A stretch of DNA of 32,785 bases. Source: a virus. Location of the stretch: positions 1 to 32,785 of IMG/VR virus record IMGVR_UViG_3300043403_000262. One strand, 5' to 3'. Numbering within the stretch: the stretch's first letter is position 1; every line of letters starts with the position of its first letter. Made by a program: the position numbers and the translations under genes. Shown in pieces: positions 1,414 through 32,785 of this stretch. The notes beneath the pieces are model-generated. The model was not told the origin of the DNA. It was given only the letters and a program-made list of their open reading frames with translations, and ran no database searches.

Positions 1414-1553
1414 AAAGAAAAATGTTGAGTGAAAATGTTAAAAAAATATTTTTCTCCCAGACTTTTATTTTTTTAGGTACTTTTTCAAAAAAAAACCTAA
1501 AAAGTATGTTTCAGTCGTTGGAGTTAATTGAATATCAATTTATTATGGTAGCC

Positions 1554-1784
1554 TTACGTTGTTGCAATGAGCGTTGCAGCCCTTTTTCCCATTGCAACAG
1601 GGTAGCGTAATTTATTGATTATCAGATATTTTGACTGTTGCAGTGGCGTTGCAATAAAAATTTGAGTGAAACATTCCATTGCAACATTTTATTGCAACAC
1701 TGCAACGCCATTGCAACGCTCATTGCAACAACGTAATTAAATGAATATCAATTAATTAAGCCACTTTTTGGGTTTGTTGCAATA
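1554..1784. repeat. Iteron cluster, candidate replication origin
   Basis: Eleven copies of a 9-bp word of the form GTTGCA(A/G)TG or its complement lie here. On the plus strand they start at 1561, 1573, 1637, 1648 and 1776. Reversed copies start at 1590, 1677, 1690, 1698, 1709 and 1721. Several are spaced 8-13 bp apart. The outermost reversed copies form a 25-bp perfect inverted repeat with 1554-1578. An A/T-rich tract follows (1780-1835) and the primase-helicase gene ends at 1846. Iterons plus an A/T-rich element beside a replication gene is the classical layout of an initiator-dependent origin. The whole 432-bp stretch 1414-1845 holds no credible gene. Confidence 0.6.
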
Positions 1785-1845: not shown

Positions 1846-4800
1846 TTAGGATTTTGGGGTAATTTTGGATTTCAGACTAGATAATTGGTTTGCATCAATC
1901 AATTCTAACCCAAATTTCTTCGCCACAATTTCATAATCAATGCACATAGTTCTAAAATTGCCTTGAGGCTCAATTTTTTTCTTTGGAGCTTTTTTCTTGG
2001 CTTCTGCGATTTCATCAGCATCTTTTGCCATTCTTGTCGCAATTGATTTCGCCACAAAATATTCAGCATCTTCCAGCCGCCTGCGCATCTCAAATTCGGA
2101 TAACATTCTATTTATATCCGTACCCATCGCCTTGAAAGAATCTTTGTACAGGCGATAAAGCCTTTCGAATCTAAATTTCAGCGCAATTCCTTCCCATAGC
2201 ATTTCTCCCGTTTCCTCATTTGCAATTTGCTCCGCATCTATCTTAAATACAACCTTTTGGTTTTTATCTTCCCACGCCAATTGGAGTATGCTCCAAAATT
2301 CTTGCAATGGCTCCATATTGCGCTCCAATCCAATTTGCTCAATAATTTTATCCACACACATTTCCTTAATTTCCTGCTCATTCAAAGGGAAAGAAATAAG
2401 TCTGTTGCGTAATAGAATAATAATCGTACCTGCAATAAAAGTTGCGCTCTCATAATACCTATCCTCTACTCCGTCATATTGCTGTTTTACCTGTTCTCGA
2501 AAATACTTTTTCAGTTCCTGATGTACTTTCACATAGTTTTCAGTTACAACTTTTCTATGCTTCAGGATTCCAACAGAAACTTGAGAGAGATTAGATTCTA
2601 ATAGCTTAACAACTTCCTCATAAGCCGCATATTGCTCCTTCGTTCTATCAGAGTTTTGGGTAAGCTCCAAAACAAAAAGGCGCGTGCGAAAGGCATTATA
2701 AATACTTTCTGTTGGAATCTCATTTGAAGTCGTAAAAATCCCACCTCTTACGGTTTTCGTAATATTTCTTTGCGTTTCAACATCAAAGATAGTATGCCCA
2801 TTCCCCTGTGCAAAGCCCTGTAACATTTTGATTTGCTTGTGATAGTTTGCGCCCCTCTTAAAATCGTCTAATACATGAACTGTATTTTGGATTCCTTCCA
2901 AAGCCGCTACTATACCAGGAATAGAAGTATTATCATTCAAAAGGTCGTGCGTTCTACCCTCTCCAAAGAATTGCGTATTAAGTGTAGCGAGTTTCGTTTT
3001 TCCTGAAGATGCCTGTGTACTCCAAAGCCAAAAAATAGGGAAAAAATTGCCATGTACCTTCATCGTAAAATCAAAGAAGCAACAAGCCATTGTATAGCAA
3101 GTAGTAAGCAGGGCTTCATCTCCCCATGCACGTTGGATAATTTGCGCAACAGTAAAAATATCATATTTGGATTGCTTGTATTGGAACTGTTCAAAATCGC
3201 TATACACTGTACCTAATTTTGAATCAGATAATAAGGATAACTTATATCCTGTATTATTTTGGTCCATTATGATAGATTTTTCATTTGGCTGCAATATCTG
3301 ATAATCACGCAAAGAAAAAGCAGCGTTTGAATAGAAATACATCTGCGCATTTTCATTCCAGCCCGCATTATGCACGCTCGCAATCATTGGCAACTCTTGA
3401 TTGAAATATTGGATAAGGTAGCGATGATGGTTTTCGTTGGTATTCGAATAGTTGAAACCGAATGACATCACAAATTTGTAAAAAGCCTGTGAAGTAGCAA
3501 GATCTTCCTCTGGAATGGTAAGGTATAATCTATCCTTTCCTGGATTCCAAAGCTCCACTTCCCAACCAAAACGCCTTTTTCCGTTTTTTCGTGCAAGTGT
3601 AATATCCGTGCGAGCTGTAACTTCCATGCAAAAATTTGCAATATGCGTCCCCATTACATGAATGCCATTTTCATCAACCGTTACATCGGCATATTGCTTT
3701 TCATTGCCTTCCTCTTTCAGTTCTTCCAATGCCTCCTTAATCGCAAGATTAAAGGCTTTTTTCTTGAATATTTGTCCAGCTTCGTCAGTCCACTGATTGC
3801 GGCTGCTAGGACTTGGAATTATGGCAACATAACGCGCAATTTTCGCCATGAAATTAGCCCTATCTTCAGTTTGTGCATCGGCAGGAATTTCGGAGGCATT
3901 CCAACGCCTATTTACCGCCCAAACTAGCCAATTTACAGTATGATAGCCCAAATGCTTTACTACTAATTCCTTGGAATAGTGCGCACACCAATCTGGAATT
4001 TTATTATCAATGAATTGGAAGTTTTTTTCAGCAATAAAATTAATTGCCTTGTTCTCGTACTTGGTATATACTTCTTTGCCAATATCATCAATATCAGATT
4101 TTGCTTTGCAGGCTGCATCTTTGAACCAAAAGAAGGAATCATTGGGGGCTTTATGCTGTATTTTTTCAGGAAAAAGTACTACGCGCACTTGAAAACCATT
4201 TGCCAAAAACACCTCAATTTCCCTGTCTGTTGCGTCTTTTCCCGCCTTATCATTATCTCTGAAAAGTACAACCTTTGTCGTAATTTTCTTAATCTCCGCA
4301 ATGTGATTATCAGATATACTCGCACTTCCCGTAGCTACTGCCGCTAAACCGTACTCATACAAACGCATTACATTAAAATAGCCTTCGCACACATACAGCC
4401 AATCATTATTTTTCAATAACCTACCCGCCGTATAAAGCCCATATAAGTATTTATCTTTGTCGTAATACTCATTATTGCGGCTATTTTTGTACTTAATGCC
4501 GTTTCCATTTTGTTTGCTATGCAATTCACGACCTGCAAAACCGATTGTATTGCCTCCCCTATCCAAGAATGGAATCATAATTCTATCCAAAAAGAAATCT
4601 TTATACTGATTTCCATTGTCAAGGGAGGACAAAAGTGATATTTCTTCGCACAGGGCTAAATCCTTGGTTACAAAATGCGCAGCATTGGGCGCGTAGCCAA
4701 TACCAAAAGTTATGAGCGTATCAATGCTTAATTTTCTGCCAGATAAATAGTTTTTCGCCTCATCAGATTGCTTTAGGCTTTGTTGGAAATAGATATTGGC

Positions 4801-5178
4801 ATACTCCAGCATCTCCTTAGAAGTTTTTCTACGGATTTGCTTCTTTTGCCAAAGCTCCTTATCTACCCCATTTTGAGGCTGGTCGTACTCAATGTGTATT
4901 TTTTCCATATTACACACTTTTTCGATTGCCTCAAAATAAGAACATCTCTCCATTTTCATCACAAAACCAATAGCACTATCTCCACCTTCCATAGAAGAAA
5001 AGCACTTCCACACAGGCTTGCTAGGCGTTACGACAAAGCTAGGAGTTCTCTCATCTTGAAAAGGCGATTTACCTTTCCAAGACGCGCCCGACCTTCTTAG
5101 TTTAGTGTAATGAGAAATTACACTAACCATATCCGCTTCTTTTGCCTTATCTATTGTATTTTGCGAGATGAATGCCAT
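1846..5178 (-). CDS. Toprim primase-helicase fusion protein
   Basis: This 1110-aa replication protein combines a DnaG-type primase with an AAA+/SF3-like helicase. Residues 1-90 follow the DnaG CHC2 zinc-domain fold, but the ligand positions read S38, Q41, C59 and S62 (normally C-H-C-C), so zinc binding is probably lost. The Toprim part follows, with E265 in CEGYFNV and D308/D310 in FRDNDKAG, the metal-binding acids of primases. The C-terminal half has a variant P-loop at 721-728 (TQASSGKT), Walker B VHVLDD at 767-772, a sensor-1 TTSNE ending at 820 and candidate arginine fingers at R831/R833. It should prime and unwind DNA at the adjacent iteron origin. The start is the ATG at 5178, with MAFISQNTIDKAK typical of the family. 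Confidence 0.9.
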   Translation of the reverse strand: MAFISQNTIDKAKEADMVSVISHYTKLRRSGASWKGKSPFQDERTPSFVVTPSKPVWKCFSSMEGGDSAIGFVMKMERCSYFEAIEKVCNMEKIHIEYDQPQNGVDKELWQKKQIRRKTSKEMLEYANIYFQQSLKQSDEAKNYLSGRKLSIDTLITFGIGYAPNAAHFVTKDLALCEEISLLSSLDNGNQYKDFFLDRIMIPFLDRGGNTIGFAGRELHSKQNGNGIKYKNSRNNEYYDKDKYLYGLYTAGRLLKNNDWLYVCEGYFNVMRLYEYGLAAVATGSASISDNHIAEIKKITTKVVLFRDNDKAGKDATDREIEVFLANGFQVRVVLFPEKIQHKAPNDSFFWFKDAACKAKSDIDDIGKEVYTKYENKAINFIAEKNFQFIDNKIPDWCAHYSKELVVKHLGYHTVNWLVWAVNRRWNASEIPADAQTEDRANFMAKIARYVAIIPSPSSRNQWTDEAGQIFKKKAFNLAIKEALEELKEEGNEKQYADVTVDENGIHVMGTHIANFCMEVTARTDITLARKNGKRRFGWEVELWNPGKDRLYLTIPEEDLATSQAFYKFVMSFGFNYSNTNENHHRYLIQYFNQELPMIASVHNAGWNENAQMYFYSNAAFSLRDYQILQPNEKSIIMDQNNTGYKLSLLSDSKLGTVYSDFEQFQYKQSKYDIFTVAQIIQRAWGDEALLTTCYTMACCFFDFTMKVHGNFFPIFWLWSTQASSGKTKLATLNTQFFGEGRTHDLLNDNTSIPGIVAALEGIQNTVHVLDDFKRGANYHKQIKMLQGFAQGNGHTIFDVETQRNITKTVRGGIFTTSNEIPTESIYNAFRTRLFVLELTQNSDRTKEQYAAYEEVVKLLESNLSQVSVGILKHRKVVTENYVKVHQELKKYFREQVKQQYDGVEDRYYESATFIAGTIIILLRNRLISFPLNEQEIKEMCVDKIIEQIGLERNMEPLQEFWSILQLAWEDKNQKVVFKIDAEQIANEETGEMLWEGIALKFRFERLYRLYKDSFKAMGTDINRMLSEFEMRRRLEDAEYFVAKSIATRMAKDADEIAEAKKKAPKKKIEPQGNFRTMCIDYEIVAKKFGLELIDANQLSSLKSKITPKS

Positions 5179-5187
5179 AATACGGTA

Positions 5188-5460
5188 TTATTTCCTTTTG
5201 AAAAACCAATAAAAGTTTGGGGCAAGCCCCAATTCAACACTATCTGTCATTTTTGCGGCACAGCCTGCCTTGACCATCGCAAAGTAAACCTCTATAATTG
5301 GGATATTTACCCCCATAAAAGCCTTAATCTTTGCTTGTATTTCCTCCGTAGTGAACGCAAATTCCGCATCACTGATAGAATCCGTATGCGTATAATCGTT
5401 ACAAATGAGCGCGATTGCTTGCTCTAATAGCTTGTTATCATTAGGCTCTATTGTATCCAT
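5188..5460 (-). CDS. Small protein, possibly winged-helix, upstream of the primase
   Basis: This 90-aa protein ends 9 bp before the primase-helicase start, so it is in the same transcript. Residues around FTTEEIQAKIKAFMGVN to VKAGCAAKM have the helix-turn-helix-strand rhythm of a winged-helix domain, and the C-terminus is basic (FFKRK). That would fit a DNA-binding partner of the helicase, but this is inference from pattern only. Its start overlaps the end of the upstream gene by 20 bp, indicating translational coupling. Confidence 0.7.
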   Translation of the reverse strand: MDTIEPNDNKLLEQAIALICNDYTHTDSISDAEFAFTTEEIQAKIKAFMGVNIPIIEVYFAMVKAGCAAKMTDSVELGLAPNFYWFFKRK

Positions 5461-6582: not shown

Positions 6583-7272
6583 TCAATTGTGTAAAAAGTG
6601 GAAAGAAAATGTATCAGAATATCTATTTACGCAATCCTCAAGCATATCCATTAGAGAAAGAATATTAGAATGAGAAAAAGATGGTGTTAGCTTTAATATC
6701 TCGCTTTTATTCGGGCGGGCAAGCCATACGCCGATACTGCCTGAATATCCACTGTCGTAATCCCCATAGCTGTAATACCTAATATTAAATCTGATATAAA
6801 AATTAGCTTGAGGAGCTATGCCCTTGGAAGCCTTAAATGCCGCCTCTGTAACACCTGTCGCAACTAAAGTAAGTTGAGGCTGCTCCACTTCCGTATAAGA
6901 AGTATCAAAGTTTGAGGTTTCTTCGACCTCATATTCTTCTTCGCCGCATATATTCTGTAAAATAGTGCGAGCGCGTGAGATTAAGTCGTGTTTTTGGTAA
7001 TCGTAACCCATAATCTTGAAATTGTTATTTGGATAATAATAATTGAGATATTCCGCCGCATTATCAAAATCAGATTCTGCAACATTTTCGGGCGAAACGG
7101 TAGAACCAGCGATTTCCTCCCACTCTTCAAAATCGAAAGAATCATTATCCACTTCTATAATTTGCCCAGCTTCTATTGCCATGGCTGCTTGCGCAATGCC
7201 CAAATCATAAGCACAGTTGCCATACATGAATATGGTGCTGTCATCTGTATATTTTTCGGCAGAATATCCCAT
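6583..7272 (-). CDS. First gene of the leftward early operon, unknown, 229 aa
   Basis: This acidic protein of 229 aa is not recognised. Strongly acidic stretches (VDNDSFDFEEWEEI, CGEEEYEVEETSNF) surround an alpha/beta C-terminal half with many Tyr and Gly residues (RYYSYGDYDSGYSGS). No membrane or signal segment is seen. It lies immediately left of the switch, so it should be the first product made when the leftward promoter is released; small acidic early proteins of this kind are often DNA mimics or anti-host factors, but that is speculation. The start ATG at 7272 is preceded by the same 16-bp leader as the gene at 1033-1413. Confidence 0.75.
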   Translation of the reverse strand: MGYSAEKYTDDSTIFMYGNCAYDLGIAQAAMAIEAGQIIEVDNDSFDFEEWEEIAGSTVSPENVAESDFDNAAEYLNYYYPNNNFKIMGYDYQKHDLISRARTILQNICGEEEYEVEETSNFDTSYTEVEQPQLTLVATGVTEAAFKASKGIAPQANFYIRFNIRYYSYGDYDSGYSGSIGVWLARPNKSEILKLTPSFSHSNILSLMDMLEDCVNRYSDTFSFHFLHN

Positions 7273-7330
7273 AAAGAAAAATGTTAAAGATTTTTTGCAA
7301 TTGATTGTAAATAAATTTACATTTGTCGCT

Positions 7331-7370
7331 CATTTGTCATTTATGACATTCATTTGTCATTTTTGACATT
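7331..7370. promoter_or_regulatory. Two tandem TGTCATnnATGACA operators
   Basis: Two 20-bp units (19/20 identical) lie head to tail. Each contains a palindrome: TGTCATTTATGACA at 7335-7348 and TGTCATTTTTGACA at 7355-7368, centres 20 bp apart (two helical turns, same face). A degenerate third unit starts at 7320 (CATTTGTCG). They lie between the divergent transcripts, next to a weak -10-like TAAATTTA (7312-7319) for the leftward gene. They are the natural operator for the repressor encoded at 7459, by analogy with other temperate phages. Confidence 0.7.
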
Positions 7371-7379
7371 GTAAAATAG

Positions 7380-7425
7380 GTTTAAAAATTTGAACTTTCC
7401 AAATTTTCGGTTCATATATTTGAAC
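7380..7425. promoter_or_regulatory. Second operator pair overlapping the rightward promoter
   Basis: Two 16-bp near-palindromes, GTTTAAAAATTTGAAC (7380-7395) and GTTCATATATTTGAAC (7410-7425), lie 30 bp apart. They coincide with promoter boxes for the repressor gene: TTTG at 7389-7392 and TATATTTG at 7415-7422, a perfect TAnnTTTG, with a 22-bp spacer. Their sequence differs from the TGTCAT operators, so a second regulator, perhaps the XRE-like protein at 8338, may act here. Confidence 0.6.
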
Positions 7426-7458
7426 AAATATTTATATTCTAATAACTTTTTAATATTT

Positions 7459-7881
7459 ATGCCTGATTTAACTAATGAAAAAGAACTTGAAAGCGAAAAA
7501 TCGCAACTCGCCATAAGGTTGAATAAGATTCTTTCATATTATAATATTGATAGAAAGGATATAATTTCACAGTTAAATATAGGAAAGTCTAGGCTTAGCA
7601 ATTATTTGACGGGAAAAAACTTTCCAGATTATACGTTTTTAAAGGAAATATCTATTTTGTACAAAGATTTGAACATGAATTGGTTTTTAACTGGGGAAGG
7701 TGAAATGATAATAGATAATGACTTATCATTGTCCGAGCCTAATAGCGAATACAAAGTATCTGATAAGGAAAAAAATGAAACTCCTTCCCTATTAGAGAAT
7801 GCACAAAAAGAAATAGAATATTTAAAAAAGCAGGTAGAAGACAAAGAATTAATTATATCACTTTTAAAACCAAACAAATGA
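7459..7881 (+). CDS. Phage repressor, XRE/CI-type HTH with C-terminal coiled coil
   Basis: This 140-aa protein has a helix-turn-helix of the XRE/lambda-repressor family at about residues 16-62 (SQLAIRLNKIL, recognition helix near GKSRLSNYLTG). It is followed by the typical NMNWFLTGEGEM motif and, at 110-136, a heptad coiled coil (ENAQKEIEYLKKQVEDKE) in place of a peptidase domain. Bacteroidota phage and conjugative-element regulators often have this form. With no LexA-like protease part, induction by RecA cleavage is unlikely; the antirepressor at 27355 is a more likely inactivator. ATG 7459 was chosen because upstream in-frame codons overlap the promoter and would need TTG. It overlaps the next gene by 4 bp. 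Confidence 0.85.
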   Translation: MPDLTNEKELESEKSQLAIRLNKILSYYNIDRKDIISQLNIGKSRLSNYLTGKNFPDYTFLKEISILYKDLNMNWFLTGEGEMIIDNDLSLSEPNSEYKVSDKEKNETPSLLENAQKEIEYLKKQVEDKELIISLLKPNK

Positions 7882-8680: not shown

Positions 8681-8859
8681 TGTCCATGAGCTTGTCCATT
8701 TGTCCATAGAGCATGGACAAATTATTTTGTATTGTATTGATTTTTAGGTATTTGTATAGTAGCATACGAAACTCCCGTAGCTGCTACAAATTTTCAAAGC
8801 AATTGATTATCAATTAATTACAAAAATTATTGTCCATAAAGTATGGACATTCATGGACA
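8681..8859. repeat. TGTCCAT repeat cluster, candidate attP arm sites or operator
   Basis: Seven copies of TGTCCAT or its complement lie between the XRE-like gene and the integrase. Direct copies start at 8681, 8693, 8701 and 8831; inverted ATGGACA copies start at 8713, 8843 and 8853. They form two palindromes: TTTGTCCAT (8699-8707) with ATGGACAAA (8713-8721), and TGTCCATA (8831-8838) with TATGGACA (8842-8849). About 110 bp of A/T-rich DNA between the two clusters includes a hairpin at about 8758-8792 (GTAGCA/TGCTAC). Two groups of short repeats around a central core is how phage attP arm-type sites are arranged; an operator for the integrase promoter is the alternative. Confidence 0.5.
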
Positions 8860-8886
8860 AACTCATATCCGAAAAAATGTAGGATT

Positions 8887-9981
8887 ATGAGCAAAAAAAA
8901 TGTTGCCCCAAGCGAAAATTATTACAAGGTCTATGACTGCAATAAAGACCTTAGCCAAAAATGGTTTGTCCATTACACGCACGAAAAAAAGCGCGTGAAG
9001 ATATATACCATGAAAGAACATGGCATAAATATCAATGCCCATGATACAGCAGCAGATAGGCTTGTAGCTGCAAATCTCATTATTAAGTATTTGAAGGGAG
9101 AGTATGTAAAACCATTTGAGATCGAAAAGCTAGTATCTGATATGCTATTAGGTATAGAGATGCGCATTATCAGCAAAAAAAGTAAACAGTGTATGGGCGC
9201 GTATGTGCATACTTTTGCGGCTTATTTGGAAGAAAGTGCCATAAATAGTATGCAAATGTTTGATAAGGAGCATTTCATTTATTGGCTGAAAAATAAAAGG
9301 GAATTGCACAACTCCACCATTAATCATTACATTGGAAAACTGAAAAGTATTTTCAAGCAAATTATAAAAAATGGCAATTGGCAACAAGAAAACCCATTTT
9401 CGGAAGTCAGTCGCTTGAAATCAAGTGCCACCTCTGCAAAATATTTCACCCGCCAGGACCTTACACGCCTGAAGCCCTATCTTGATAAGCATCAGGAGTT
9501 GAATATGTATGTACAATTCATGTATTATTGCTTCATTCGCCCTAATGAATTGCGCCAAATGAAGGTATCTGATATTAATTTGGAAGAAAAAAAGATACAA
9601 GTAAGGAGCAAGATTTCCAAAAATGAAAAAGCCCAATATATTGTTATTCCCATGCCTTTTTATGGGCAAGTATTGGCTTTTCTTGATGGAAAAGTCAATA
9701 GTGATTACCTTTTTAGCGGGAAAAATGGCAAAATGTTGTATATCAATGCAATGTACAATAAATTTCGTAAGTTGCTATCGGCAGCAGGATTTGACATTAC
9801 GCAGTATAGTATCTACTCTATGAAACATACGGGAGCAGTACAAGCCGTATTAAATGGAATAGATGTAAAAAGCCTTCAAATACAATTAAGGCATAGCAGC
9901 CTTGATATTACGGACCAATATTTGAAGCAAATAGGCATACAAGACTTGGTTAATTTAAGGGATAATTTTCCGAGTTTTTGA
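8887..9981 (+). CDS. int: Tyrosine recombinase, phage integrase
   Basis: This 364-aa integrase catalyses site-specific integration and excision between attP and attB. It has an N-terminal arm-DNA-binding region (about 1-75), a SAM-like core-binding domain (about 98-180) and a catalytic domain (about 185-364). Catalytic positions are R218 (FIRPNELRQ), a beta-hairpin lysine near 242-248, K313 in YSMKHTGA (the usual HxxR box is YxxK, a form I associate with Bacteroidota integrases), H336 (QLRHSS) and the nucleophile Y345 (DQYLK). The start is ATG 8887; the frame upstream runs through the TGTCCAT repeats and would need TTG. The gene faces the lytic block and ends at a bidirectional terminator. 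Confidence 0.95.
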   Translation: MSKKNVAPSENYYKVYDCNKDLSQKWFVHYTHEKKRVKIYTMKEHGININAHDTAADRLVAANLIIKYLKGEYVKPFEIEKLVSDMLLGIEMRIISKKSKQCMGAYVHTFAAYLEESAINSMQMFDKEHFIYWLKNKRELHNSTINHYIGKLKSIFKQIIKNGNWQQENPFSEVSRLKSSATSAKYFTRQDLTRLKPYLDKHQELNMYVQFMYYCFIRPNELRQMKVSDINLEEKKIQVRSKISKNEKAQYIVIPMPFYGQVLAFLDGKVNSDYLFSGKNGKMLYINAMYNKFRKLLSAAGFDITQYSIYSMKHTGAVQAVLNGIDVKSLQIQLRHSSLDITDQYLKQIGIQDLVNLRDNFPSF

Positions 9982-27354: not shown

Positions 27355-27885
27355 TTAGTTCAAAGCGAGTAAAGTCTGTCCAGTGAGTAAATCCGTATCT
27401 AACTCATTCAAAACTTTAGTACAGGTTTTTCTTTTAGACTTCAATTCTGCGATTCTTTGTGTGCGCGTATCATTTTTTAGTTCCTCTTCCAATGCTGCAA
27501 TTTCGGCTTCCGCATTTTGCTTTTCACACAAAGTATTGTATCTGTAAGTAAGTTGCCCATGAAAATGATTGTAAAGAATTTCATAGCATTTCCTACGGTA
27601 TTTTTGCAATTCTTCACTTTCAGAACGGATTGAAAAAAGCCAGCCATAAACAAACATTTCGGGCAAACATACCATTTCTTGAAGCCTTCCAGATGAGTCG
27701 TGTATATGCTGTTTAGCATATACACCGCCTAAAATATCGTCTTTTTTTAGGTTCTGATATTGCCTATCATAGTTCACGCCTAGCGCGTCACATATTGGCT
27801 TTACCGCCACAAACCAAGTACCTTCAGCATTAAGAATAGAAATATTTTTGCCATTAAAATTAAGCGTTTTGAAAATGTTTTCCAT
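27355..27885 (-). CDS. Antirepressor with P22_AR_N-type domain
   Basis: This 176-aa protein has an N-terminal domain (about 1-112) that matches the P22 antirepressor N-terminal family. TWFVAVKPICDALGV (23-37) precedes DRQYQNLKKDDIL, then CLPEMFVYGWLFSI (73-86) and KYRRKCYEILYNHFHG (95-110). The C-terminal helix (about 118-150) is a coiled coil. Such proteins inactivate repressors and force lytic growth. It lies far from its presumed target at 7459, inside the late region, between head genes and terminase. Upstream are the promoter at 28077-28108 and the structured RNA at 27930-28070; downstream a strong terminator. A standalone regulated unit is likely. Confidence 0.85.
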   Translation of the reverse strand: MENIFKTLNFNGKNISILNAEGTWFVAVKPICDALGVNYDRQYQNLKKDDILGGVYAKQHIHDSSGRLQEMVCLPEMFVYGWLFSIRSESEELQKYRRKCYEILYNHFHGQLTYRYNTLCEKQNAEAEIAALEEELKNDTRTQRIAELKSKRKTCTKVLNELDTDLLTGQTLLALN

Positions 27886-32100: not shown

Positions 32101-32643
32101 TTATCTTTTTGTATCTACAAGATAGGACATCGGCATCCAAGCAGAATCTTGCACTAACCTATAAACCTTGGATTCAAAAAAAGAGGATACAGATAATTGT
32201 TTTATCTCTATACCCCAATCTGTACGCTCTAATGCTTGAATCGCAGATTTTTCAATACCTTGTACCGTACAATTATTGAAATCTGTGTTGTAAATATATT
32301 GCGTATTAGATTGTTGTACCACCCCACAAATAGTGGATTCAAAATCTGAAATTTGGGAGTACATTTTTGATATATCTACCAAAATATAACCTACAATAAC
32401 GGTTACTGTAACAGTTTTACCATCTTTTGTATTTATCGTTTGTGGAGATAGGTTTATGAAATGCAACCTTGTATGGTGTACGAAACAAGTATCAAGGTAG
32501 GGTATTCTGAAATAAACACCTGGATTTAATATTTTAATTCTATTGCCAAGCCTAATTCTAATCCCCTGTTCCCATGGTAATACTACTATCCACCATTTAA
32601 AAAGACCTTCTACCTTTTCAATTATCGCTTTTAACCAATCCAT
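32101..32643 (-). CDS. SPFH/Band 7-domain protein (short stomatin-like)
   Basis: This 180-aa protein starts with an amphipathic or membrane-embedded segment (MDWLKAIIEKVEGLFKWWIVVL). The SPFH signature follows: PWEQGIRIRLGNRIK, LNPGVYFRIPYLD and the strand-rich TINTKDGKTVTVTVIVGYI. The part normally holding a C-terminal coiled coil is absent, so it is shorter than cellular stomatins (about 250-300 aa). SPFH proteins scaffold inner-membrane microdomains and can modulate proteases (as HflK/C does for FtsH). In a phage, interference with a host membrane protease or superinfection is a plausible inference. It is followed by a 39-aa gene and a terminator, as a separate cassette beside the circle junction. 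Confidence 0.75.
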   Translation of the reverse strand: MDWLKAIIEKVEGLFKWWIVVLPWEQGIRIRLGNRIKILNPGVYFRIPYLDTCFVHHTRLHFINLSPQTINTKDGKTVTVTVIVGYILVDISKMYSQISDFESTICGVVQQSNTQYIYNTDFNNCTVQGIEKSAIQALERTDWGIEIKQLSVSSFFESKVYRLVQDSAWMPMSYLVDTKR

Positions 32644-32682: not shown

Positions 32683-32751
32683 TTGCTGCTAACGACAACG
32701 GCACAAAGAAAAAAACTGAACTGCTTAGTGTGCCGTTTGCGTCAGCAGCCC
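32683..32751. repeat. Imperfect inverted repeat at the circle junction
   Basis: GCTGCTAACGACAACGGCACA (about 32686-32706) pairs with sequence in the right terminal repeat (about 32730-32750), 18 of 21 positions, around an A-rich loop (AAGAAAAAAACTGAACTGCT). In the circular molecule this hairpin follows the stop codon of the gene at 37-378 and precedes the SPFH gene. It could be a terminator-like structure or a junction-specific site such as a packaging or recombination element. Confidence 0.5.
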
Positions 32752-32785
32752 AGCCAATAGCGGCTATGCTACAGAAATAAAAACG
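32728..32785. repeat. Terminal direct repeat, right copy
   Basis: Same 58 bases as positions 1-58 with two T-to-A differences. See the left copy. If the window is a closed circle its true length is about 32,727 bp, and the leftward gene at 37-378 continues uninterrupted into the leader of the SPFH gene. Confidence 0.8.

Follow-up and report, generated by a model that had tools for sequence, protein, structure and literature searches.

The segment 1530-1845 of a 32,785-bp virus record, which was analysed over its whole length and is hereafter called the window, probably serves a temperate siphovirus-like phage as its replication origin, acting through the primase-helicase encoded beside it; we put the probability of this reading, mechanism included, at roughly 0.72. 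That the array of short words in this segment is an iteron-type replication origin beside the primase-helicase gene, as the original prediction held, is well supported by comparison, since arrays of other words occupy the same place in relatives. Sequence and structural models further make it probable that this true phage has an origin of the SaPI/PICI type whose initiator is the primase-helicase.

Genomic context

The window encodes a CI-like repressor (7390-7881), a tyrosine integrase, a tape-measure protein, a portal, a large terminase and an anti-repressor (27355-27885). Because it has its own portal, large terminase and tape-measure genes, the element is a phage and not a helper-dependent satellite of the PICI kind. 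The ends of the record (1-58 and 32728-32785) are direct repeats identical at 56 of 58 positions, with two mismatches, and the record may therefore be a nearly complete genome; it may be complete or circular, or the end repeat may be an attachment site. The virus is probably an unclassified temperate siphovirus-like phage of Bacteroidota. This host is suggested by the nearest named relatives of the primase-helicase in the phage collection, which include Flavobacterium and Cellulophaga phages of the Duneviridae, all less than 30% identical. Single-protein searches of IMG/VR retrieved no close relatives of the primase-helicase, terminase or portal, and a single-protein search of GTDB genomes retrieved none of the primase-helicase. 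The window also encodes a protein with an SPFH/Band 7 domain (32101-32643; Pfam E 3e-14), which is unexpected for a small phage.

An inverted array of GTTGCA words

The putative origin lies in an intergenic region at 1414-1845, between the minus-strand open reading frames 1033-1413 and 1846-5178. This gap measures exactly the 432 bp of the gene-free region originally described. It contains eleven GTTGCA words at 1561-1784, five on the plus and six on the minus strand. The predicted number and split thus stand for the GTTGCA cores, but the full 9-mer GTTGCA(A/G)TG, which had been claimed for all eleven, fits only seven of them; three others read GTTGCAATA and one reads GTTGCAGCC. On the plus strand are GTTGCAATG (1561-1569), the variant GTTGCAGCC (1573-1581), GTTGCAGTG (1637-1645) and the variant GTTGCAATA (1648-1656 and 1776-1784). 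The minus strand has GTTGCAATG four times (1590-1598, 1677-1685, 1709-1717 and 1721-1729), the variant GTTGCAATA (1690-1698) and GTTGCAGTG (1698-1706). Same-strand neighbours inside one word block are spaced 8-13 bp from start to start, and AT spacers part the blocks. The array begins 62 bp from the primase-helicase stop, on its 3' side. Throughout the 32.8-kb window, every match to the full word (7/7) and to GTTGCAAT (8/8) falls inside the array.

The perfect 25-bp inverted repeat of the original prediction was found as well, with its left arm TTACGTTGTTGCAATGAGCGTTGCA at 1554-1578 on the plus strand and its right arm at 1712-1736 on the minus strand. It contains ten of the eleven words, the one at 1776-1784 lying outside. 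A second inverted repeat of 22 bp (86%) is nested, its left arm at 1632-1653 (plus strand) pairing with 1701-1722. In 5000 dinucleotide shuffles of the 432-bp gap, 7-mers reached at most six copies and 8-mers at most five, versus eight observed for each; the longest perfect inverted repeat among 150 shuffles was 18 bp, versus 25 bp in the window. A hairpin origin was considered and not adopted, the DNA fold z-score of -6 being attributed to the inverted repeat. No Rfam family or tRNA was found in the searched sequence, and the 21-base arm pattern had zero matches in IMG/VR. GC skew has no inflection at 1.6 kb; it tracks gene direction and is uninformative. Fifteen GTTGCA words also occur in tandem in a Candidatus Anammoxibacter contig (L121:2708-2960); the pattern there repeats regularly and does not resemble the putative origin.

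The A/T tract and IHF-consensus sites

An A/T tract follows the words, as had been predicted. The 60-mer with the lowest G+C of the whole window (6 G+C of 60) starts at 1777 and ends at 1836; it sits at the array edge and borders words on one side only. The whole tract (1777-1845), which separates the last word from the stop codon of the primase-helicase gene, is a candidate DNA unwinding element. The window array also has three matches to the IHF consensus WATCAANNNNTTR, namely, the putative bend site TATCAATTTATTA (1533-1545, plus strand) and two sites in the AT spacers between word blocks, AATCAATAAATTA (1608-1620, minus strand) and TATCAATTAATTA (1746-1758, plus strand).

Unguided comparison of 24 arrays placed TGATTATCA/AATCAAT, located in the AT spacers, among the most shared 7-mers, and these motifs match the same consensus. 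Altogether, 25 arrays contain 21 IHF-consensus sites versus a shuffle mean of 0.89 and a maximum of 4 (500 shuffles), and the density is 3.67 per kb in arrays versus 0.16 per kb in the rest of these loci, a 23-fold difference, although the test was not blind because the motif had been picked after several arrays had been read. At least one such site is present in 13 of the 25 arrays. These sequences suggest that a host protein of the IHF/HU type may bind the AT spacers.

The adjacent primase-helicase

The proposed initiator is the 1110-aa primase-helicase encoded at 1846-5178 on the minus strand, assigned from Pfam, from a profile match to Cch and from its predicted fold. Its N-terminus contains a DnaG zinc ribbon, DNAG_N and Toprim (residues 5-347, Pfam). 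The predicted architecture continues with an AAA+ helicase like Cch and SaPI Rep and ends in a C-terminal winged-helix-like domain; the approximately 760 residues after Toprim, taken alone, matched no Pfam family. In a profile search, the helicase half matches SCCmec Cch (5dgk, E=1e-11). The model of residues 345-1110 has a mean pLDDT of 78, and the best structural match of the helicase model is again Cch (Z 26.1, rmsd 5.5, 478 residues). SaPIbov1 Rep is matched with Z 23.2 (rmsd 5.2, 451 residues), and MCM helicases, at Z about 15, score well below both. The helicase half is thus related to Cch and, by this kinship and its predicted fold, a putative self-loading helicase like SaPI Rep and Cch. 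The original prediction had recognised no RepA-like initiator. The idea that an initiator is missing is not supported, given the kinship of the adjacent protein with SCCmec Cch, to which the initiator SaPIbov1 Rep is related.

The profile alignment to DUF927 proteins spans the AAA+ part only, and Pfam detects neither DUF927 nor HTH_56 in the window protein at E 0.1. Since both are absent, we regard the protein as related to the Pfam family of SaPIbov1 Rep and Cch and do not file it there; across its own family, DUF927 was detected in 2 of 35 members. The C-terminal winged-helix-like domain (residues 966-1110, encoded at 1846-2283 on the minus strand) is the proposed word-binding part. Folded alone, it gave weak fold matches (Z 4.5 or less), the best of which were winged-helix proteins.

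Recurrence of the layout in other phages

An alignment-based scan of IMG/VR yielded 80 loci, about 45 with a full-length primase-helicase homologue. The comparison set comprised 36 distinct loci (less than 80% identical) encoding the primase-helicase, with relatives picked by primase similarity. The best 7-mer cluster of a locus was accepted at a score of 9 or more, which was reached in 28 of the 36 loci, whereas 164 dinucleotide-shuffled loci never exceeded 7.2. For the window, only the surroundings of the primase-helicase were scanned, since another array, next to the integrase, has a slightly higher score. The strongest cluster starts at most 340 bp 3' of the primase-helicase stop in half of the set (18/36, with scores of 9.5-26) versus 1.09 loci expected under uniform placement. 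It lies elsewhere in ten loci, and eight have none at threshold within the sequence scanned.

The same layout, with mostly private words, is found again in numerous distantly related phages, among them phages known to infect Flavobacterium. Flavobacterium phages laban6-1 and FPSV-D15, for instance, have GTTGAGA arrays in both orientations directly behind the primase-helicase gene. Words found in the arrays are GTTGAGA, TGTAGTT, GGATGTG, GTGTGGA, GTTGGTC, GTTCCGC, TGTAGCC, GTGGAAA, TGTAGGT, GTCGGGA and TGTTGAA, among others. The word usually differs from phage to phage, and what recurs is the arrangement of blocks and spacers. Reading of the sequences revealed a common plan, in which inverted word blocks in the middle are flanked on each side by an AT spacer and then by a further word block. 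Arrays located elsewhere mostly keep this plan, the exception being that of L016.

The putative initiator and alternative explanations

Sequence and fold make the primase-helicase itself the most likely initiator. Loci L087 and L089 encode DnaG in a short gene of its own, and their array (L087:8359-8660 and L089:8380-8660) starts at most 3 bp from the end of a separate SaPI Rep/Cch-like gene with DUF927 and HTH_56, the helix-turn-helix domain of Cch; by their sequence, these loci look like SaPI-type replicons in other phage lineages. In L069 and L072 the gene immediately before the array (L069:7492-7780 and L072:9854-10160) encodes a DUF5906 helicase; here another helicase family shows the same order of gene and array. 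Because arrays follow these genes, the array goes with the helicase-initiator and not with the primase. Similarity of words and similarity of primase-helicases are correlated (r 0.41-0.54, depending on the domain). With the N-terminal primase controlled in a partial Mantel test, the C-terminal domain did not covary with the words (partial r 0.06, p 0.23), and for this reason its proposed role as the word-binding part rests on analogy and predicted fold.

From these features we infer binding, bending, melting, loading and origin activity in the following form. The C-terminal winged-helix-like domain would bind the GTTGCA words, forming two assemblies of opposite orientation, and a host IHF/HU-type protein would bend the AT spacers, bringing the inverted word blocks together. 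The A/T tract 1777-1845 would then melt, the helicase would load itself as hexamers, and the fused primase would make the first primers.

Alternatively, the array could be an origin whose words are bound by another phage or host protein, which then recruits the primase-helicase in the way that lambda O and plasmid RepA recruit DnaB. Such a binder would be consistent with word similarity not tracking the C-terminal domain once the primase is controlled, and with the ten loci in which the array does not adjoin the primase-helicase gene. We nevertheless consider it unlikely, given that the helicase resembles self-loading initiators and that no Rep_3/RepA-type or other plasmid-type initiator family was found among the ORFs scanned with Pfam and PHROGs, small ORFs being covered in part. 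The product of 5188-5460, previously put forward as a possible word binder, matches no Pfam or PHROG family. Neither it nor the other small replication-module genes of the window have a detectable homologue in any fetched relative locus, though arrays persist there, and this candidate loses its appeal accordingly. The presence of genes for a CI-like repressor and an anti-repressor, together with short inverted words that suit dimeric repressors, would agree with operators or stoperator-like sites bound by one of these two proteins. However, the stretch 7273-7389, which separates the repressor gene from the divergent gene 6583-7272, has no GTTGCA, the nearest single word being at 7078, inside a gene, and the array sits 3' of one leftward gene and recurs behind the helicase gene; a regulatory element thus has little probability.

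Plasmid iteron arrays can serve in partition, incompatibility or copy control, and the window array might be a site of this type and not a start site. Such a role seems very improbable here, with no ParA/ParB-like family among the ORFs scanned and with this as the sole GTTGCA array of the window. Least credible is a palindromic mobile element or a recombination site carrying integrase arm sites. An attP site, too, combines inverted word blocks and IHF-type sites, and the perfect 25-bp terminal inverted repeat could hint at a MITE, but a separate array at 8681-8872 is a better attP candidate. It is built of other words (TTGTCCAT), with GTCCAT/ATGGAC in both orientations, has its own IHF-consensus site (8808-8820) and lies directly 5' of the integrase gene (ATG at 8887), so that its words are candidate integrase arm sites. 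As for a MITE, the 16-base core pattern occurs in at least 118 genome stretches, where about 120 are expected by chance (257 Gb, both strands), and no similar intergenic array was present among the core-pattern matches listed from genomes.

Relation to known replication systems

The origin of phage lambda, served by the O protein, and plasmid RepA origins combine iterons with an A/T-rich unwinding element, and several involve bending by IHF or HU. Unlike in those systems, no O-like or Rep-type initiator was seen among the ORFs scanned here, and the window array is placed after the replication gene and not within it. In phage P4, the origin iterons are bound by the C-terminal domain of the alpha protein. 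The primase of the window protein belongs to the DnaG/Toprim family, unlike that of P4 alpha. Much as proposed here for the window protein, P4 alpha unites primase and initiating helicase activities in one protein (PMC7145576). SCCmec Cch resembles the helicase half of the window protein by the profile (E=1e-11) and fold (Z 26.1) matches given above. It differs in having no fused primase; furthermore, DUF927 was detected in just 2/35 members of the window protein's family and not in the window protein. The C-terminal domain of Cch2 binds direct repeats downstream of its gene, at a putative SCCmec origin (PMC7581432).

Like the window, the SaPI/PICI origin of the SaPIbov1 Rep type has short iterons within AT-rich DNA directly 3' of the gene for the initiator, and in both the predicted initiator is a self-loading AAA+ helicase that has a DNA-binding domain at its C-terminus; some of these elements fuse primase and helicase, as here (PMC6092414, PMC7581432). 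By contrast, the window element is a phage with portal, terminase and tape-measure genes, its fused primase is of the DnaG/Toprim type, and its word blocks form inverted arrays with IHF-consensus sites between them. The SaPI/PICI-type layout was said in a 2018 paper to occur in no other known bacterial replicon; the sequences compared here suggest that many phages have it, too.

More tentatively, and with doubts outweighing confidence, this class of phages, many of which probably infect Bacteroidota, may use origins with SaPI-type self-loading initiators, where private words on a constant scaffold of bend sites would act as a diversifying origin code that prevents prophages and satellites residing in the same cell from triggering one another's origins. 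Our literature search found no origin mapping in Bacteroidota phages, whose origins, as far as we could find, are largely unmapped. The present analysis gives a concrete candidate origin and initiator for the window and for some two dozen relatives, one of them laban6-1, a cultured Flavobacterium phage. With many words on one scaffold, these arrays would also be a natural data set for how a winged-helix initiator reads DNA.
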